A stretch of 64,000 nt of DNA, from NCBI RefSeq assembly GCF_019966535.1, contig NZ_JAIMID010000006.1, forward strand, positions 1 through 64,000, in the 5' to 3' direction. Each line of letters begins with the position of its first letter. Position 1 is the stretch's first letter. The stretch is from Mesobacterium pallidum (GTDB taxonomy: Bacteria > Pseudomonadota > Alphaproteobacteria > Rhodobacterales > Rhodobacteraceae). The notes under the pieces are model-generated. The model was given only the letters and a program-made list of their open reading frames with translations, did not search any database and was not told the origin of the DNA. Position numbers and translations under genes: made by a program. Below are positions 2,545 through 25,931 of this stretch, in pieces.

Positions 2545-4119
2545 TTACGATTTCTGGAACATGGCGAGCATGCGCCGTGTCACGAGGAAGCCGCCGAAAA
2601 TGTTGATCCCGGCCATGAAGACCGACAGCGCGGCCAGCAGGATCACCAGGAACGACCCCGACCCGATCTGCATCAGAGCCCCGAGGATGATGATCGACGA
2701 GATGGCGTTGGTGACGGCCATCAGCGGCGTGTGCAGCGAGTGGCTGACGTTCCAGATCACCTGGAAGCCGACAAACACCGACAGAACGAAGACGATGAAG
2801 TGCTGCATGAAGCTGGCCGGCGCCACGAGGCCCACCGCCAGCAGCAGCGCACCGCCGACCGCGAGCAGGGTCACCTGGCTCTTGGTCTGCGCCTTGAACG
2901 CGGCGATTTCGTTCGCGCGCTTTTCTTCCGGCGTCAGCTCCTTGGGCGGCGGCGCCTTCTTCTGCGCCGCGATGGCGGCCACTTTCGGCGGCGGCGGCGG
3001 GAAGGTGATCTCGCCCTGGTAGGCGACCGTGGCCCCGCGGATCACGTCGTCTTCCATGTTGTGGTTGATCTGACCGTCCTTCTCGGGGGTCAGGTCGGTC
3101 ATCATGTGCCGGATGTTGGTGGCGTAAAGCGTCGAGGATTGCGCCGCCATCCGGCTGGGGAAGTCGGTGTAGCCGATGATCGTGACGCCGTTGTCGGTCA
3201 CGACCTTCTCGTCCATCTTGGTGCCTTCGACGTTGCCACCCTTTTCGGCGGCAAGGTCGACGATAACCGAACCGGGCTTCATCGCCGCGACCATGTCGGC
3301 CAGCCACAGTTTGGGCGCCTCGCGGTTCGGGATCAGTGCGGTGGTGATGACGATGTCGACCTCGGGGGCCAGTTCGCGGAACTTGGCCAGCTGCGCCTCG
3401 CGGAACTCAGGGCTCGAGACCGAGGCGTAACCGCCCGTGGCCGCGCCGTCCTGCTGTTCTTCCTCGAAATCGAGGTAGACGAATTCCGCGCCCATCGATT
3501 CGACCTGCTCGGCCACTTCGGGCCGCACGTCGAAGGCGTATGTGATCGCGCCCAGCGAGGTCGAGGTGCCGATGGCGGCAAGGCCCGCGACGCCCGCGCC
3601 GACGACCAGCACCTTGGCCGGGGGCACCTTGCCCGCCGCCGTGATCTGCCCGGTGAAGAAGCGGCCAAAGTTGTTGCCCGCCTCGATCACCGCGCGGTAG
3701 CCGGCGATATTGGCCATCGAGCTCAGCGCGTCCATCTTCTGCGCGCGGCTGATGCGCGGCACCATTTCCATGGCGATCACGTTGCCGCCCTTGGACTTGG
3801 CCAGCTCGAGCCCCTCGGCGTTGCCGCCCGGATTGAAGAACGTGATCAAGGTCTTGTCCCTGGTCATGCGCTTCAGCTCGGTGTCGGTCGGGATCCGCAC
3901 CTTGGCGATGATGTCGGCCTCTTTCCAAAGCGCGGCCGCCGTCTTGATCACGGTCACGCCGGCCTTTTCATAGGCGGCATCGTCGAAACCGGCCTTGGCG
4001 CCGGCCCCGGTTTCGATCAGGCACTCGTAGCCCAGTTTCTGCAGCTGGAGCGCGGAGTCCGGCGTCATCGCGACCCGGTTCTCGCCCTCCATCACCTCCT
4101 TGGGTGTTCCGATCTTCAC
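2545..4119 (-). CDS. pntA: NAD(P) transhydrogenase subunit alpha
   Basis: The alpha subunit. The N-terminal part resembles alanine dehydrogenase and holds the NAD(H) site (GAGVAGLAA near residue 170). After an Ala/Pro-rich linker with a run of five prolines comes a C-terminal membrane part of about four spans (residues ~410-524). The two parts are fused as in E. coli, not split into PntAA and PntAB as in Rhodospirillum rubrum. Two non-ATG starts compete: TTG at 4125 and GTG at 4119. The GGGGGA ribosome-binding sequence is 8-9 bases from the GTG but only about 2 from the TTG, so GTG (524 residues) is preferred. First gene of the pntAB operon. Confidence 0.95.
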
Positions 4120-4188
4120 GTCCAAAGTCCCCCTTCATGACATGGTTCGCTCACCCTCCGCGCAACGGAGGGGGAAATTCACTAAGCC

Positions 4189-4216
4189 TTAATACCTGCC
4201 CCGGTCAAAGACGCAA
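4189..4216 (-). promoter_or_regulatory. candidate sigma-70-type promoter for pntAB
   Basis: On the minus strand TTGCGT (4216-4211) and TATTAA (4194-4189) are separated by 16 bases and lie about 70 bases upstream of the pntA start, in a patch noticeably richer in A+T than its surroundings. Spacing is acceptable and the hexamers are near consensus. There is no supporting operator, so this is a by-eye prediction only. Confidence 0.3.
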
Positions 4217-4294
4217 GAATAGCCGCCATATAGTCACGCAATAATATTTCGCGACCGTGGCACAGCGGCACAACAAAGCATCCAGCCGGGCGAA

Positions 4295-4747
4295 TCACAC
4301 CCAGCGGCGGGTTTTTTGCGCGTAGCGGGCAAAATCGGCGCGGAACTTGCGGCGCAGCCGGTCCTCTTCGGGAATGACGAAGCGGCGTTCGAGCGTCCAG
4401 AGCAGGATCGGCACCAGAGGCAGCGAGAGAATCGCGTCCCAGGTCAGGATGAACCCCAGCAGGATCAGCACGTCGCCGGCGTAGATCGGGTTGCGCGTGC
4501 GGCTGAAGATGCCCGTGGTGACAAGGCGGTCGGCCTCGAGATGCGGGATCACCGTGGTCCGTTGGCGCCGCATCTCATAGACCGCCAGAGCCATCAGCAG
4601 CAGCCCCGCGCCCACCAGCAGCCCGCCGACGAGGTCCGGCAACACCTCGCCCAGGCTCAGCCCCAGCGGCAGGGCCTGCGCCTGCAACCAGGCGATCGCG
4701 AGGAAGGCGATCAGCCAGACGGGTGGGATGTCGATCCATTTCAGCAC
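4295..4747 (-). CDS. isoprenylcysteine/phospholipid methyltransferase-like membrane protein
   Basis: A 150-residue integral membrane protein with four or five hydrophobic spans. The C-terminal half carries the family signature: R-N-P-I-Y-A-G near residue 90, an E-E pair and a F-x2-Y-x4-R-R-W tail. This pattern defines the ICMT/PEMT-type methyltransferases that use S-adenosylmethionine at the membrane; the substrate cannot be deduced. The GTG start at 4747 is chosen because AAGGAG lies 7 bases upstream; a TTG at 4765 would overlap that site. It is divergent from the SDR gene. Confidence 0.75.
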   Translation of the reverse strand: MLKWIDIPPVWLIAFLAIAWLQAQALPLGLSLGEVLPDLVGGLLVGAGLLLMALAVYEMRRQRTTVIPHLEADRLVTTGIFSRTRNPIYAGDVLILLGFILTWDAILSLPLVPILLWTLERRFVIPEEDRLRRKFRADFARYAQKTRRWV

Positions 4748-19816: not shown

Positions 19817-19874
19817 GCCCGTTTGCTTGCAAGCGGGCGCCGGCCCGGCAGTCGCTTTTGCTTTGCAAAAGCGA
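19817..19874. repeat. two tandem hairpins
   Basis: GCCCGTTTGC-TT-GCAAGCGGGC (one G-T mismatch, 19817-19838) followed by TCGCTTTTGC-TTT-GCAAAAGCGA (perfect, 19852-19874). They lie between the ffs palindrome and ggt. Function unknown; together with 19764-19807 they make three stems in a row. The remaining stretch up to ggt (19875-20058) shows no gene. Confidence 0.55.
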
Positions 19875-20058
19875 TGAGAGGGCTCACGGCACACCCAACC
19901 CCCCACCGCCAGACACGCCCATCCAAGATGTTCGGCTCTTGGACCGGCCCTCCGGGTCGCCCCCGTCCCCCGCACACCCCCTTGCGCGACCATTCATTTG
20001 CCACGCGGCCACCTGTCCCCCTACACTCGCGCACGACCCTGACGCGAAAGGACACGCC

Positions 20059-21849
20059 ATGCCGCTCGACCTCCGCCCGCTGGTTCTGGCCATCGGTCTC
20101 GCCAGCCCCGCACTGGCCCAGCAGACCGCCGATGCCGTAGCCCCCGAAGAGGCCACCGCCCCCGCCACACTTGCCGGCCTGTCGCCCGCCGCGCAGGCCG
20201 CCTGGGACACCAAGGCCGCCGGCCAGCCAACCCAAGCGCAGGACTGGATGGTCGCCGCCGCGAACCCGCTGGCGGTCGAAACCGGCGCCCGCGTGCTGCG
20301 CGAAGGCGGGACCGCCGCCGATGCCATGGTCGCCGTGCAGGCCGTTCTGGGGCTGGTGGAGCCGCAAAGTTCCGGCCTTGGCGGCGGCGCCTTCCTTGTT
20401 TGGTACGATGCCGCAAGCGGAGAGGTCACCACGCTCGACGGCCGCGAGACCGCGCCGCTGGCCGCCACGCCGCGCCTCTTCCAGGACGAGACCGGCGAGC
20501 CGCTGGGCTTTTTCGACGCCGTGGTGGGCGGCCGTTCGGTCGGCACACCCGGCACCCCCGCGCTGATGGAGGAAGCGCACCGCCGCTGGGGCACAGCCAA
20601 CTGGCCGGGTCTCTTCACCGAGGCGATTGCCCTGGCCGAGGACGGGTTCACTGTCTCGCCCCGCCTGGCCGAGCTGGTCGCGGGCGATGCCGACCGGCTG
20701 GGCCGCTTCCCGGCCACGACCGACTACTTCTACCCCGGCGGCACGGCCATCGCGGCCGGCGACATCCTGACCAACATCGCCTATGCCGACACGCTGCGCC
20801 AGATCGCGGCGGGCGGCGCGCGGGCCTTCTACGAGGGGCCGATTGCCGAGGACATCGTCACCGCCGTCCGCACTGCCGCAGGCAACCCCGGCGTGCTTTC
20901 GACGACCGACCTTGCCCTTTACGAGGTCAAGGAACGCCCGGCCGTCTGCGTGGGGTACCGCGTGCACGAGGTTTGCGGCATGGGCCCACCCTCTTCGGGC
21001 GCGCTGACGGTCGGACAGATCCTCGGAATGCTGGGCAGCTACGACCTTGCAGCGCTGGGTGCCGAGGCGCCCGAGGCCTGGCGTCTGATCGGCGATGCCT
21101 CGCGGATCGCCTTCGCCGACCGGGGCCGCTACATGGCCGACAGCGATTTCGTGCCCGTCCCGACCGAAGGGCTGGTGGCCCCCGCCTACCTTTCGGACCG
21201 CGCGCAGCTGCTGTCTGGCGACGACGCCCTGCCCGAGGTCGCCCCCGGCACGCCGGAATGGGATCACGCGCTGCTCTGGGCCGACGACCAGGCACTCGAG
21301 CTGCCCTCGACCTCGCATATCTCGATCGTGGACAGCGCCGGCAATGCCCTGTCGATGACCACGACGATCGAGAACGCCTTCGGCTCGCGCCTCATGGCGC
21401 GCGGGTTCCTCTTGAACAACGAGCTGACGGATTTCTCTTTCCGGTCCCATTCGGACGGGGTGCCCATCGCCAACCGGGTCGAGCCGGGCAAGCGGCCGCG
21501 CTCCTCCATGGCGCCGAGCATCGTGCTGACCGATGGCGCGCCGTCGCTGGTGATCGGCAGCCCGGGCGGCAGCCGGATCATCGGCTACGTGGCGCAGGCC
21601 ATCATCGCCTGGGCCGACTGGGGGATGGACGTGCAGCAGGCCGTAGCCCTGCCCCATGGCGTCAACCGCTTCGGCACCTTCGACCTAGAGGCCGGCACCC
21701 CGGCCGAGGCGCTGCAAGCCCCGCTCGAGGCCATGGGCTTCGAGGTGAGCATCCGCGAGCTGAACTCGGGCCTTCATGCCATCGCGGTCGGAGACGTCCT
21801 GCAAGGCGGCGCCGATCCGCGCCGTGAGGGGATCGCGATGGGGGAATGA
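20059..21849 (+). CDS. ggt: gamma-glutamyltransferase (periplasmic)
   Basis: A 596-residue Ntn-hydrolase that cleaves glutathione and other gamma-glutamyl compounds. A signal peptide (cleavage near S-P-A-L-A-Q) sends it to the periplasm. The proenzyme should self-cleave before Thr418 in S-T-S-H-I-S-I-V-D, giving large and small subunits; Thr418 is then the nucleophile. G-S-P-G-G-S-R-I near residue 500 and R-P-R-S-S-M-A-P-S near 480 are family landmarks. AAAGGA precedes the ATG. It is monocistronic and convergent with a GNAT gene. Confidence 0.95.
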   Translation: MPLDLRPLVLAIGLASPALAQQTADAVAPEEATAPATLAGLSPAAQAAWDTKAAGQPTQAQDWMVAAANPLAVETGARVLREGGTAADAMVAVQAVLGLVEPQSSGLGGGAFLVWYDAASGEVTTLDGRETAPLAATPRLFQDETGEPLGFFDAVVGGRSVGTPGTPALMEEAHRRWGTANWPGLFTEAIALAEDGFTVSPRLAELVAGDADRLGRFPATTDYFYPGGTAIAAGDILTNIAYADTLRQIAAGGARAFYEGPIAEDIVTAVRTAAGNPGVLSTTDLALYEVKERPAVCVGYRVHEVCGMGPPSSGALTVGQILGMLGSYDLAALGAEAPEAWRLIGDASRIAFADRGRYMADSDFVPVPTEGLVAPAYLSDRAQLLSGDDALPEVAPGTPEWDHALLWADDQALELPSTSHISIVDSAGNALSMTTTIENAFGSRLMARGFLLNNELTDFSFRSHSDGVPIANRVEPGKRPRSSMAPSIVLTDGAPSLVIGSPGGSRIIGYVAQAIIAWADWGMDVQQAVALPHGVNRFGTFDLEAGTPAEALQAPLEAMGFEVSIRELNSGLHAIAVGDVLQGGADPRREGIAMGE

Positions 21850-22395: not shown

Positions 22396-23628
22396 ATGAA
22401 ACTGCAAGACCTTGACATCCTAGTCACAGCACCGCCGGCCCCGGGATGGGGCGGGCGCTACTGGATCCTCGTCAAGCTGACGACCGCCTGCGGCGTGACC
22501 GGCTGGGGCGAATGCTATGCCGCAAGCGTCGGGCCAGAGGCGATGCGCGCCGTGATCGGGGATGTCTTTGCCCGCCACATGGCGGGAGAGGACCCGGCGA
22601 ACATCGAGCTGATGTTCCGTCGCGCCTATTCCGCGGGCTTCACCCAGCGCCCTGATCTCACCGTCATGGGCGCCTTTTCCGGGCTGGAAATCGCCTGCTG
22701 GGACATACTGGGCAAGGCGCTGGACCGGCCGGTCCATGCGTTGCTGGGCGGGCGGACGAACGACCGCATCCGCGCCTATACCTACCTCTACCCCGACGCG
22801 CGGCATGACTTGCCCGCATTCTGGGGCGATGCCGATGCCGGCGCGCAGGTGGCCGCGGACCTCGCGGATGCCGGCTGGACCGCCGTCAAGGTCGACCCGG
22901 CCGGGCCCTACACGATCCGGGGCGGGCACATGCCCTCGCTCGACGATATCGCCACATCGGTGAAATTCTGTGCAAAGATCCGCGAGGCGGTGGGCACGCG
23001 GGCCGACATCCTCTTCGGCACCCACGGCCAGTTCAGCACGGCCGGCGCGTTGCGTCTCGCCAAGGCGATCGAGCCCTACGACCCGCTCTGGTACGAGGAA
23101 CCCGTGCCGCCGGACAACGTCGCCGCCATGGCGCGGGTGGCCGGCAGCACCTCGATCCCCATTGCCACCGGCGAGCGGCTGACCACCAAGGCCGAGTTCG
23201 CCCCGATCCTGCGCACCGGGGCCGCCGCGATCCTGCAACCGGCGCTTGGCCGCGTCGGCGGGCTGAACGAGGCGCGCAAGATCGCCGCCATGGCCGAGGT
23301 CTACAACGCGCAACTCGCCCCGCACCTTTATGCCGGGCCGGTGGAATGGGCGGCCAACCTGCACCTCGCCACCGCGATCCCCAACATCCTGATGGCCGAG
23401 ACGATCCAGACGCCCTTTCACGACGCGCTCATCCACGGCACGATCCGGGTGGAACGCGGGTTCATCACGCTGTCGGATGCGCCGGGCCTTGGCATCGAGG
23501 TGGACGAAGGCCTCGCCCGCGCGCATCCCTATACCGGCGACCGGCTGCACCTCGAGATGCAGGAGGCGCCCTGCGACTACACGGCGCCCAATCTCTTCGG
23601 CGGCGGCGCCCCGCCCGAGCGGACTTGA
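22396..23628 (+). CDS. mandelate racemase/muconate lactonizing-type enolase
   Basis: A 410-residue enolase-superfamily enzyme that abstracts a proton next to a carboxylate, usually a sugar-acid dehydratase or cycloisomerase. The capping domain fills the first ~120 residues. In the barrel, W-Y-E-E-P and A-T-G-E-R supply two metal ligands and A-P-H-L-Y a catalytic-type His. At the first ligand position the sequence reads L-F-G-T-H-G-Q instead of the common D-x-N/H, a variant I associate with a subgroup of MR proteins. The exact sugar acid is unknown. It precedes an ArsR-type regulator by 49 bases, possibly in one transcript. Confidence 0.85.
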   Translation: MKLQDLDILVTAPPAPGWGGRYWILVKLTTACGVTGWGECYAASVGPEAMRAVIGDVFARHMAGEDPANIELMFRRAYSAGFTQRPDLTVMGAFSGLEIACWDILGKALDRPVHALLGGRTNDRIRAYTYLYPDARHDLPAFWGDADAGAQVAADLADAGWTAVKVDPAGPYTIRGGHMPSLDDIATSVKFCAKIREAVGTRADILFGTHGQFSTAGALRLAKAIEPYDPLWYEEPVPPDNVAAMARVAGSTSIPIATGERLTTKAEFAPILRTGAAAILQPALGRVGGLNEARKIAAMAEVYNAQLAPHLYAGPVEWAANLHLATAIPNILMAETIQTPFHDALIHGTIRVERGFITLSDAPGLGIEVDEGLARAHPYTGDRLHLEMQEAPCDYTAPNLFGGGAPPERT

Positions 23629-23677
23629 CCCCGCGCGCCCAAGGCCCCATTTTAAGGGCAATCCAGCGAAAAAGCAT

Positions 23678-24040
23678 GTGATCCCCGTGACCATCGAACC
23701 CCAGATCGACACCGACGACTTCCCGTCCCCGCCCCCGTCCGAGATGGCCGGCAGCGCCGCCATGGCCGCCGCCTACCTCAAGACGCTGGCGCATGAGGGG
23801 CGGCTGATGATCCTGTGCCACCTGGGCCAAGGCGAGAAATCGGTGGGCGAGTTGGAAGAAGCGCTGGGCATCCGCCAGGCCGCCGTCAGCCAGATGCTGG
23901 CCCGCCTGCGCGAAGAGGGCCTGGTGCAGACCCGCCGCGACGGCAAGGCGATCTACTACTCGCTGGCCGACCAGAACACCCAGCGGGTGATCGGGCTGCT
24001 CTACGAGCTCTTCTGCTCAAAGGGGCCGGTGGCCTGTTGA
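23678..24040 (+). CDS. ArsR-family regulator with SqrR/BigR-type cysteines
   Basis: A winged-helix regulator of 120 residues from GTG 23678, or 98 from ATG 23744. Counted from the ATG, the wHTH spans about 30-75 (S-V-G-E-L-E, A-A-V-S-Q-M-L-A-R-L, G-K-A-I-Y-Y-S-L). Cys25 in M-I-L-C-H-L and Cys91 in Y-E-L-F-C are 66 residues apart, the same spacing as the reactive pair Cys41/Cys107 of the persulfide sensor SqrR and Cys42/Cys108 of BigR. This predicts control by a disulfide or polysulfide bridge. No sulfide-quinone reductase or rhodanese gene is adjacent, so its regulon lies elsewhere. A third cysteine is the last residue. Confidence 0.85.
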   Translation: MIPVTIEPQIDTDDFPSPPPSEMAGSAAMAAAYLKTLAHEGRLMILCHLGQGEKSVGELEEALGIRQAAVSQMLARLREEGLVQTRRDGKAIYYSLADQNTQRVIGLLYELFCSKGPVAC

Positions 24041-24548: not shown

Positions 24549-25931
24549 CTACGGTCCGGGATCAATGCAATAATCCGGTCCCATCGTTTCGCCATACAGC
24601 TCTTGGAACACATTCCTGTATTCTTGAAGGGTCTCTACTCTCTGTCTGGCCCCGACTTCGTCGCCTGAGACAGTCCAAACAGCCGTCGCGAGTGTTCCGA
24701 CTACTCCCCACGCGATGGCGGTTCCCGCCGCGACCTTCTTCCATTTCTGACCGCTCAAGTCAGTGACCTGCTTGTTGGCGGCATCCAACGCAGCAGTCAA
24801 TTCCTCGATCCGCTTGTTCAGTCGCCCGATCTCCTCACGCAACTGCTGCTCGATCTCGGGGCTTCGGTCGCCTTCTCGCAAGATGTCTGCGATCCGCCGC
24901 AAATGCAGCGGAACAGCTTCGAGTGGGACCAGCGTTTCGGGCGTTTCGTTGAGACCGGTCTCCGCGCGGAACGCCTCGAACCCTTGAGTGATCGAATATG
25001 CTACCGAGATCGCACCGGCCGATACCGCTCTTGGCGCCTCAAACAGATGCTGCACGGACGGAGGTTCAAATTCAGGCGCACGGTTTGCGTTCGCCGCTTG
25101 TTCCTTGCGCCATTCAGGCACGATCTTCTCGATCTCGGCGGCCACCGCCTCAGGCCCCTGCTCCCAGATCTTGGGGTCGATCAGGGCCACGCGCTCTTGC
25201 AGGTCCCAGGGGAGGGGTTTGCCCTCCACCATGCCGCGATACCAGCGGGCGAAGAAGGCGAAGGCGGGGTCGGTGTCGAGCAAAGTGTCGCCCACATGCT
25301 TGAGCCTGAGGCCCTCCGGCGTTCCGGCCTCATGCCACACCGGCAATGCGAAAAGGGTCTCGGGATCCAAGCCGGCATCTGAATAGATGGCGGAGGCGGC
25401 GGAGGCGGCGAAGCGGGCGAAGAAGGCGGCGGAAGCGGCGGAGGCGGCGGCGGCGGCGAAGCGGGCGGCGGAGGCGGAGGCGGCGGAGGCGGCAGCCGCG
25501 GCGAAGCGGGCGGCGGAGGCGGCGGAGGCGGCGGAGGCGGAGGCGGCGGAGGCGGAGGCGAAGCGGGCGGCGGAGGCAGAGGCGAAGGCGGCCGAGGCGG
25601 CGGAAGCGGCGGAGGCGGCGAAGCGGGCGGCGGAGGCGGCGGATTTGACTTCGGGGGTTGGTCGGACCGCCGCAACCGCCGCAGTCAGCAGCGCCCATCC
25701 TGTCAAGAGCGCAAGTATTCTGTGCGCCTTGCGCGCATCTTCGCCGGTCTTCCAGAATCGAATCCCGGTCACGTTCGGCCAGGCCCGCGACGCCGCTCGC
25801 GTCGCAATCGCCACGCAGACCTCCTGGCTTTGCTCTTTCAGCCAGGCCTCGAATGCCTCTTCACTCTCAAATTCCACCACGTCCCCCACACGCGCCCGCA
25901 CCGCGACCCTACCACCCCCCGCCCCCCGCAC
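24549..25931 (-). CDS. membrane protein with alanine-rich repeat, function unknown
   Basis: 460 residues from an ATG at 25931; a GTG about 14 codons further in (beginning G-D-V-V-E-F) may be the true start. Order: a ~50-residue N-terminal domain (S-E-E-A-F-E-A-W-L), a hydrophobic segment near 70-90, an ~85-residue Ala/Ser/Phe/Arg repeat (A-A-R-F-A-A-S-A-A type), a conserved-looking block with [13 protein letters not shown] and [11 protein letters not shown], a coiled coil near 360-400 and a second hydrophobic segment near 405-425. The C-terminal part is lower in G+C than the surroundings. No enzymatic motif. Divergent from lepA. Confidence 0.75.
25386..25646. repeat. GCG/GAG trinucleotide-based microsatellite inside the alanine-repeat gene
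   Basis: About 260 bases made of GGCGGAGGCGG-type units on the plus strand, broken by GAAGCGGGC and AAGAAGG interruptions every 40-60 bases. Most units are multiples of three, so the minus-strand protein frame stays open and encodes Ala-Ser/Ala-Ala runs punctuated by Arg-Phe. All frames on the minus strand are open through much of it. Slippage would change repeat length in frame. Confidence 0.85.

Follow-up and report, generated by a model that had tools for sequence, protein, structure and literature searches.

The ArsR/SmtB-family regulator encoded in the window (the whole 64,000-nucleotide stretch of Mesobacterium pallidum DNA analysed here) belongs, as judged from protein sequences, to a family of sensors already known, within which it forms a real, conserved and separate branch, referred to below as clade A. 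The predicted cysteine switch in this protein is well founded at the sequence level; the neighbouring enolase-superfamily gene as its target is not. The best explanation, to which we give about an even chance, is that clade A is a second persulfide-type dithiol repressor with its own paralogous clade, acting in trans on SqrR-type dyads and not on the enolase, and that its place at the end of a gene block is inherited.

To our knowledge, the dithiol ArsR repressors characterised so far are associated with genes for sulfur oxidation, biofilms, toxins or respiration. A strictly conserved dithiol clade at a non-sulfur locus, usually in the company of a second family member, raises the question of how one signal is split between two sensors. 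A literature search of article texts found nothing on clade A, on its pairing with an enolase or on SqrR together with hemA.

The regulator and its cysteine pair

The gene and the parts of its product discussed here are located as follows.

23678–24040, plus strand: ArsR/SmtB-family regulator, clade A of the dithiol group, with an alternative start at GTG 23687
23816–23818, plus strand: codon of Cys47, first cysteine of the pair, helix 2 (sequence and model helix 40–49)
23843–23914, plus strand: helix-turn-helix, residues 56–79, with the clade signature RQAAVSQM, in which Met73 replaces Gln (alignment and model)
24014–24016, plus strand: codon of Cys113, second cysteine of the pair, directly after helix 5 (sequence and model helix 99–112)
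24035–24037, plus strand: codon of Cys120, a third, C-terminal cysteine that is not general in the clade (sequence)

The open frame translates to a 120-residue ArsR/SmtB protein. Its true start may be GTG 23687 instead of 23678, the point at which relatives align as V-T-I/V-Q/E. The domain assignment is given by PF01022 (HTH_5), with 46.7 bits against a cut-off of 22, and by NF033788, with 86.2 bits against a cut-off of 55. The AlphaFold model (mean pLDDT 83.8) shows an alpha1–alpha5 winged-helix protein with the helices and the wing in the expected order.

Cys47 in M-I-L-C-H-L and Cys113 in LFCS are exactly 66 residues apart. In the model, Cys47 lies inside helix 2 (residues 40–49) and Cys113 directly past helix 5 (residues 99–112), and both are column-matched in all five aligned proteins, namely the window regulator, SqrR, a paralog from the same genome, BigR and HlyU. 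At the SqrR/BigR columns, the window regulator thus carries the helix 2 and helix 5 cysteines that define the dithiol group; in the available part of one account, the persulfide sensors of the ArsR family are described with their cysteine pair in these same two helices (PMC10509353). An earlier note, made from the DNA alone, had placed two cysteines 66 apart at the SqrR and BigR positions and had assigned the helix-turn-helix to the SqrR subgroup. Translation, alignment and model bear out the first statement, and the second is supported as well. The third cysteine, Cys120 at the C-terminus, was absent from that note; a cysteine C-terminal to the pair occurs in 44 of 110 clade rows.

The closest solved relative is SqrR of Rhodobacter capsulatus (E 8.1e-33), followed by BigR (2.3e-21), HlyU, YgaV and NolR. 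SqrR, BigR, HlyU and YgaV are all members of cluster 4, the dithiol ArsR group, in a published similarity network. Over a core of 89 residues, the window regulator shares 65% identity with SqrR and with its own-genome paralog alike, 47% with BigR and 44% with HlyU. The top Foldseek matches of the model are SqrR structures, the tetrasulfide form 6o8n included. VIA-align places HlyU, CzrA and SqrR level with one another, so the fold alone identifies an ArsR protein and makes no choice within ArsR.

Clade A beside SqrR and the sox-type regulators

The distribution of the regulator was surveyed in 149 genomes of the same family, with clade typing among the matches listed; about 20 of these genomes have weaker matches that carry no type, and none of 17 weaker matches read belongs to clade A. 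The matches split in two. The closer ones, with E 4.4e-40 or better, come from 38 genomes, and a 39th, G127, was picked up by its signature at E 1.0e-33, which puts clade A in at least 39 of the 149 genomes among the matches listed. In a sample of 289 genomes from the class, only the window regulator itself and one further protein from the same family matched at clade level (E 1.6e-46 or better).

Clade A is set off by SQML in the recognition helix, present in 117 of 117 rows, where 92 of 93 other rows read SQQL. The cysteine pair stands at a spacing of 66 in 116 of the 117 rows (110/110 in the main row set). The lone exception, L213 from G127, has a spacing of 67 and an altered tail, and the stretch read around it shows no enolase; it is possibly a decaying copy.

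In the tree, 47 clade A rows (41 randomly thinned distinct rows and six further ones) stand on one side of a branch of length 1.12 with support 100/98, and SqrR and the sox-type rows stand on the other. A first tree had drawn BigR and HlyU into clade A on branches of length 10; both were removed and the tree was rebuilt, which leaves it in effect unrooted. A phylogeny of the kind suggested in the earlier note separates clade A from SqrR. The label SqrR/BigR, taken as an identity, has to be given up, since the regulator falls in a separate clade and scores 108.6 bits with the BigR equivalog model NF040642, whose cut-off is 155. For that reason BigR proper was rejected; the own-genome paralog scores 92.9 bits, and none of 14 control genomes has a match above the cut-off. 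SqrR proper was likewise rejected, as SqrR lies across the 100/98 branch of this effectively unrooted tree.

A looser version, in which the window regulator would be the diverged SqrR ortholog of its host, draws on the 65% core identity and on two SqrR-like (SQQL) regulators, in L134 (G003) and L140 (G147), that occupy the equivalent position after an alcohol dehydrogenase or the enolase. The same branch speaks against it, with SqrR grouping in the other set, and so does the presence of a second match in 35 of 38 clade A genomes; in all 35, the second match read belongs to the other group. We regard orthology with SqrR as distinctly unlikely. The two SQQL regulators at the same place suggest that clade A may descend from such a copy.

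Likeness to SqrR of R. capsulatus (PDB 13ct, 6o8k–6o8o) is nevertheless extensive, covering the ArsR fold, the cysteine columns 66 apart, the core identity and a near-identical recognition helix. The window regulator differs in its separate clade, in Met73 for Gln and Gly57 for Thr, and in having neither an adjacent ATTC-N8-GAAT site nor an adjacent sulfur gene. With BigR of Xylella and Acinetobacter it shares the dithiol pair and the fold; it differs in the 47% core identity, in missing the equivalog cut-off and in that no blh-type gene was found beside it. The ArsR-type SoxR regulators of sox clusters, including the one in the same genome (L157), share the dithiol pair and, for L157, 65% core identity, but lie within a sox cluster with an ATTC-N8-GAAT dyad, and the window regulator has neither. 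The recognition helix is almost identical in clade A and the sox-type paralogs, RQAAVSQ[M/Q]LxRLR; Met73 may alter the operator.

The enolase neighbour and the gene block

Directly upstream of the regulator lies its positional partner.

22396–23628, plus strand: mandelate racemase/muconate lactonizing-type gene of the enolase superfamily (domain scan, synteny)
23629–23677, plus strand: 49-base gap from the enolase stop to the annotated regulator start, with a weaker TTGACC...TTTTAA-like pair only

The nearest solved relatives of the enolase are PDB 3rcy, 3t4w and 4j3z (E 3.4e-213 and weaker), whose names in the hit list give the type of protein only, not a function. The enolase reads LFGTHGQF, with identical letters in 3rcy and 3t4w. 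Acid-sugar dehydratases carry an Asp metal ligand at this position, and the first metal ligand of the window enolase may be missing.

Enolase genes (E 1e-80 or better) occur in 109 of the 149 survey genomes and in 34 of the 39 clade A genomes. By their coordinates, enolase and regulator adjoin in 33 of the 34 clade A genomes that have both; in the remaining genome, G127, the enolase is a 56% relative. The adjacency to a mandelate-racemase-type gene that the earlier note described is conserved over many genera. Within 81 loci (80 named ones and the window), the enolase lies at most 400 bases away in 57, further upstream in three, and is absent from 21, one of which lies near a contig end.

The enolase itself is part of a larger block. 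In relatives, the genes upstream code for PcaD, an alpha/beta hydrolase, a PcaB-like lyase, an MFS exporter and a zinc alcohol dehydrogenase; PcaD scores above the cut-off of its model and the PcaB-like lyase falls short of its own. Where the enolase has been lost, the regulator abuts the PcaB, dehydrogenase, hydrolase or MFS gene. In the window, the remaining block genes are not adjacent, and enolase and regulator are still together. Nineteen enolase loci without the regulator were read, and the block genes before the enolase are kept in 18 of them. Since the block is found without the regulator, and the regulator keeps its place without the enolase, the pairing is conserved as a block-end position: the clade A regulator marks the 3′ end of the whole block. 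TmpA/TmpB-type phosphonate genes precede the enolase in Shimia and relatives (L037, L038, L050, L051, L062, L067, L075, L077 and L080) and are also found in L162 and L163, both of which are without the regulator.

A conserved promoter-like element, CTCG followed after 19–21 bases by TATA, precedes the clade A regulator (53 distinct sequences) and is retained in loci without the enolase. The same 53 sequences have no shared palindrome beside the regulator, and an autoregulatory palindrome at this place was rejected as unsupported. Enriched pentamer palindromes in the wider clade A loci proved, from their positions, to lie within genes. The sequence ATTC-N8-GAAT, which we take to be the SqrR operator and with which the sox-type loci here agree, was not found upstream of the enolase or in the enolase–regulator gap of 110 clade A loci, as far as these reach, nor anywhere in the window or on its contig. 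Accordingly, no dyad was found in the own or adjacent promoter of the clade A regulator.

These results bear on local control, the alternative in which the regulator would repress the block (pcaD, hydrolase, pcaB, MFS, alcohol dehydrogenase and enolase) or the enolase alone, and reactive sulfur or another thiol signal would govern carbon catabolism. It draws on the 33 of 34 genomes and 57 of 81 loci with close adjacency, and on the window and five other loci, counted among those with enough upstream sequence, that keep the enolase–regulator pair without any other block gene beside the enolase. The adjacency was rejected as proof of enolase control, because the block is present without the regulator in the 19 loci read. 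Furthermore, 75 of the 109 enolase genomes are without the regulator among the matches listed, 18 of the 19 regulator-less loci still keep parts of the block, the regulator stands at the block end in 21 of 81 loci that have no enolase, and it has its own promoter-like element, with no conserved operator in the block. We consider local control unlikely, and the control of the adjacent enolase that the earlier note had raised is disfavoured on the same grounds: the separate promoter-like element, the want of a conserved palindrome, the enolase genomes without the regulator and the position kept after enolase loss.

No sulfide or sulfur-oxidation gene was found among the five window proteins scanned, in agreement with the earlier note. 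Similarly, no sulfurtransferase, sulfur transporter or oxidation gene lies next to the regulator in the window and the 80 named loci. Such neighbours are usual for the dithiol group, not obligatory. Two further frames of the window were recorded. A gamma-glutamyltransferase gene (19858–21849) lies two genes upstream of the enolase, outside the conserved neighbourhood, and its glutathione link may or may not be due to chance. A 460-residue open frame at 24549–25931 on the minus strand has a long low-complexity Ala/Ser/Arg repeat, with no match in Pfam and a weak match far below the cut-off in NCBIfam.

Candidate operators in trans

The paralog in the same genome (G000:C22, L157) sits inside a sox cluster, whose SoxA, SoxB and SoxY pass their NCBIfam cut-offs. 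Genes read from their sequences as ccdA-like, thioredoxin-like and YeeE-like flank this sox regulator, and the dyad ATTCACTTACATGAAT precedes the soxX-like gene. Among 52 loci of sox-type paralogs, 38 have an ATTCA-N6-TGAAT palindrome, against 0.3 after shuffling. With cluster, regulator and dyad, the host has genes that serve sulfane-sulfur chemistry, along with a regulator of the conventional type to control them.

The genome of the window contains 28 ATTC-N8-GAAT sites, where 12.6 to 17.3 are expected from composition. This is not greatly above expectation, so only extended dyads were used. Two were found in this genome, one before the soxX-like gene and one about 70–80 bases before a hemA match; a one-base variant also precedes a SoxH-like hydrolase (L253). 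Of the 149 genomes, 27 contain the strict form, ATTCAC-N4-GTGAAT, namely 19 of 39 with clade A and 8 of 110 others (Fisher 8.6e-8, uncorrected for common descent, which confounds it).

Perfect ATTCAC-N4-GTGAAT dyads stand shortly upstream of hemA in the own genome (L252, 5001–5016) and in G088 (L341, 3001–3016). Allowing up to two mismatches, a hemA dyad is present in 10 of 14 clade A genomes and in 3 of 13 others, a count that covers 27 of 30 loci. Among the others, it is found in three of eight genomes having a sox-type regulator without clade A, in none of one with a SqrR-like regulator and in none of four with no regulator. In G088 (99% complete), the clade A regulator is the sole close member of the group, the next match having E 7.2e-6, and the perfect hemA dyad is its one strict dyad. 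The sequence of this G088 regulator reads identically to that from L039, a Salipiger. In G076 (100% complete), which also has the clade A regulator alone, both the hemA dyad and the strict dyad are absent. A third candidate, G098, was set aside: the genome is 84% complete, and the contig with its sox genes breaks off next to a soxV-like gene (L339).

The co-occurrence of clade A with dyads at hemA and sulfur genes is the best pointer to a target, a weak one. Distant sulfur genes, the other target offered in the earlier note, fit the operator survey better than enolase control does. Against action in trans, G076 has neither a hemA dyad nor a strict one, and the sox-type paralog, which is present in most clade A genomes, may own all of the dyads.

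In the reading we prefer, the window regulator would be a dimeric winged-helix ArsR repressor, one that its host has in addition to the SoxR-type regulator from the sox cluster. If it behaves like SqrR, SoxR and HlyU, it would bind DNA as long as Cys47 and Cys113 are reduced, and would let go of it once persulfides have joined the two cysteines through a polysulfide bridge. Release on persulfide bridging of the pair is reported in the accessible portions of the papers on SqrR (PMC9995734), SoxR (PMC10451225) and HlyU (PMC10509353). As the positions of the operators suggest, the repressor would act in trans on ATTCAC-N4-GTGAAT dyads and close variants upstream of hemA and of sulfur genes, and this set of dyads would be shared or divided between clade A and SoxR. 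The place after the enolase would be inherited from an old gene block, whose end the regulator occupies. As far as the excerpted text goes, Hyphomicrobium denitrificans has two dithiol ArsR paralogs, sHdrR and SoxR, with overlapping regulons (PMC12423496). They provide a precedent for two such paralogs in one alphaproteobacterium, with the difference that both, in that excerpt, serve and adjoin sulfur oxidation genes.

The cysteine pair might also sense a signal other than persulfides, such as disulfide stress, peroxide, heme, or electrophiles and quinones from aromatic breakdown. The block includes genes of protocatechuate breakdown, with PcaD scoring above its cut-off and PcaB below; this pathway can yield electrophiles. 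For heme, dyads are found at hemA, and SqrR and YgaV are reported to bind heme in the available part of PMC9774250, which makes hemA a plausible target. Against another signal, the cysteines stand where they do in the persulfide group, which the accessible text of PMC10509353 sets apart from peroxide sensors, and the fold is nearest to SqrR by Foldseek. A different signal is thus quite unlikely. A more specific form of trans action, in which clade A would repress hemA in response to persulfides and perhaps to heme, separately from the regulator of sulfur oxidation, is rather doubtful. If it were true, reactive sulfur would set the rate of heme synthesis at hemA, the first enzyme, via a separate regulator.

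Taken as a whole, the survey yields a defined set of dyads, before hemA, the SoxH-like hydrolase, soxX and a sulfurtransferase–SQR fusion, in addition to the two near-complete genomes with clade A only. Twenty stretches around strict dyads were read, all outside the known regulator loci. The SoxH-like hydrolase is preceded by a strict dyad in six stretches from clade A genomes (L336, L337, L340, L344, L345 and L348) and one from a non-clade genome (L351). Standing behind SqrR-type dyads in several genera, this metallohydrolase is likely a member of a sulfane-sulfur regulon. Strict dyads also precede soxX (L339), hemA (L341), a gene in L343 that reads as rhodanese-like (with a weak MoeB match only in NCBIfam), and TsoY-family genes in L350 and, as a homolog, L353, both non-clade. 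Seven other stretches (L335, L342, L346, L347, L349, L352 and L354) have the dyad in or near genes with no evident link to sulfur, and these sites may be due to chance. In L338, the gene behind the strict dyad is a sulfurtransferase–SQR fusion (3058–4731), in which a TIGR01244 sulfurtransferase is joined to a sulfide:quinone reductase-like part; the dyad upstream of it is perfect.
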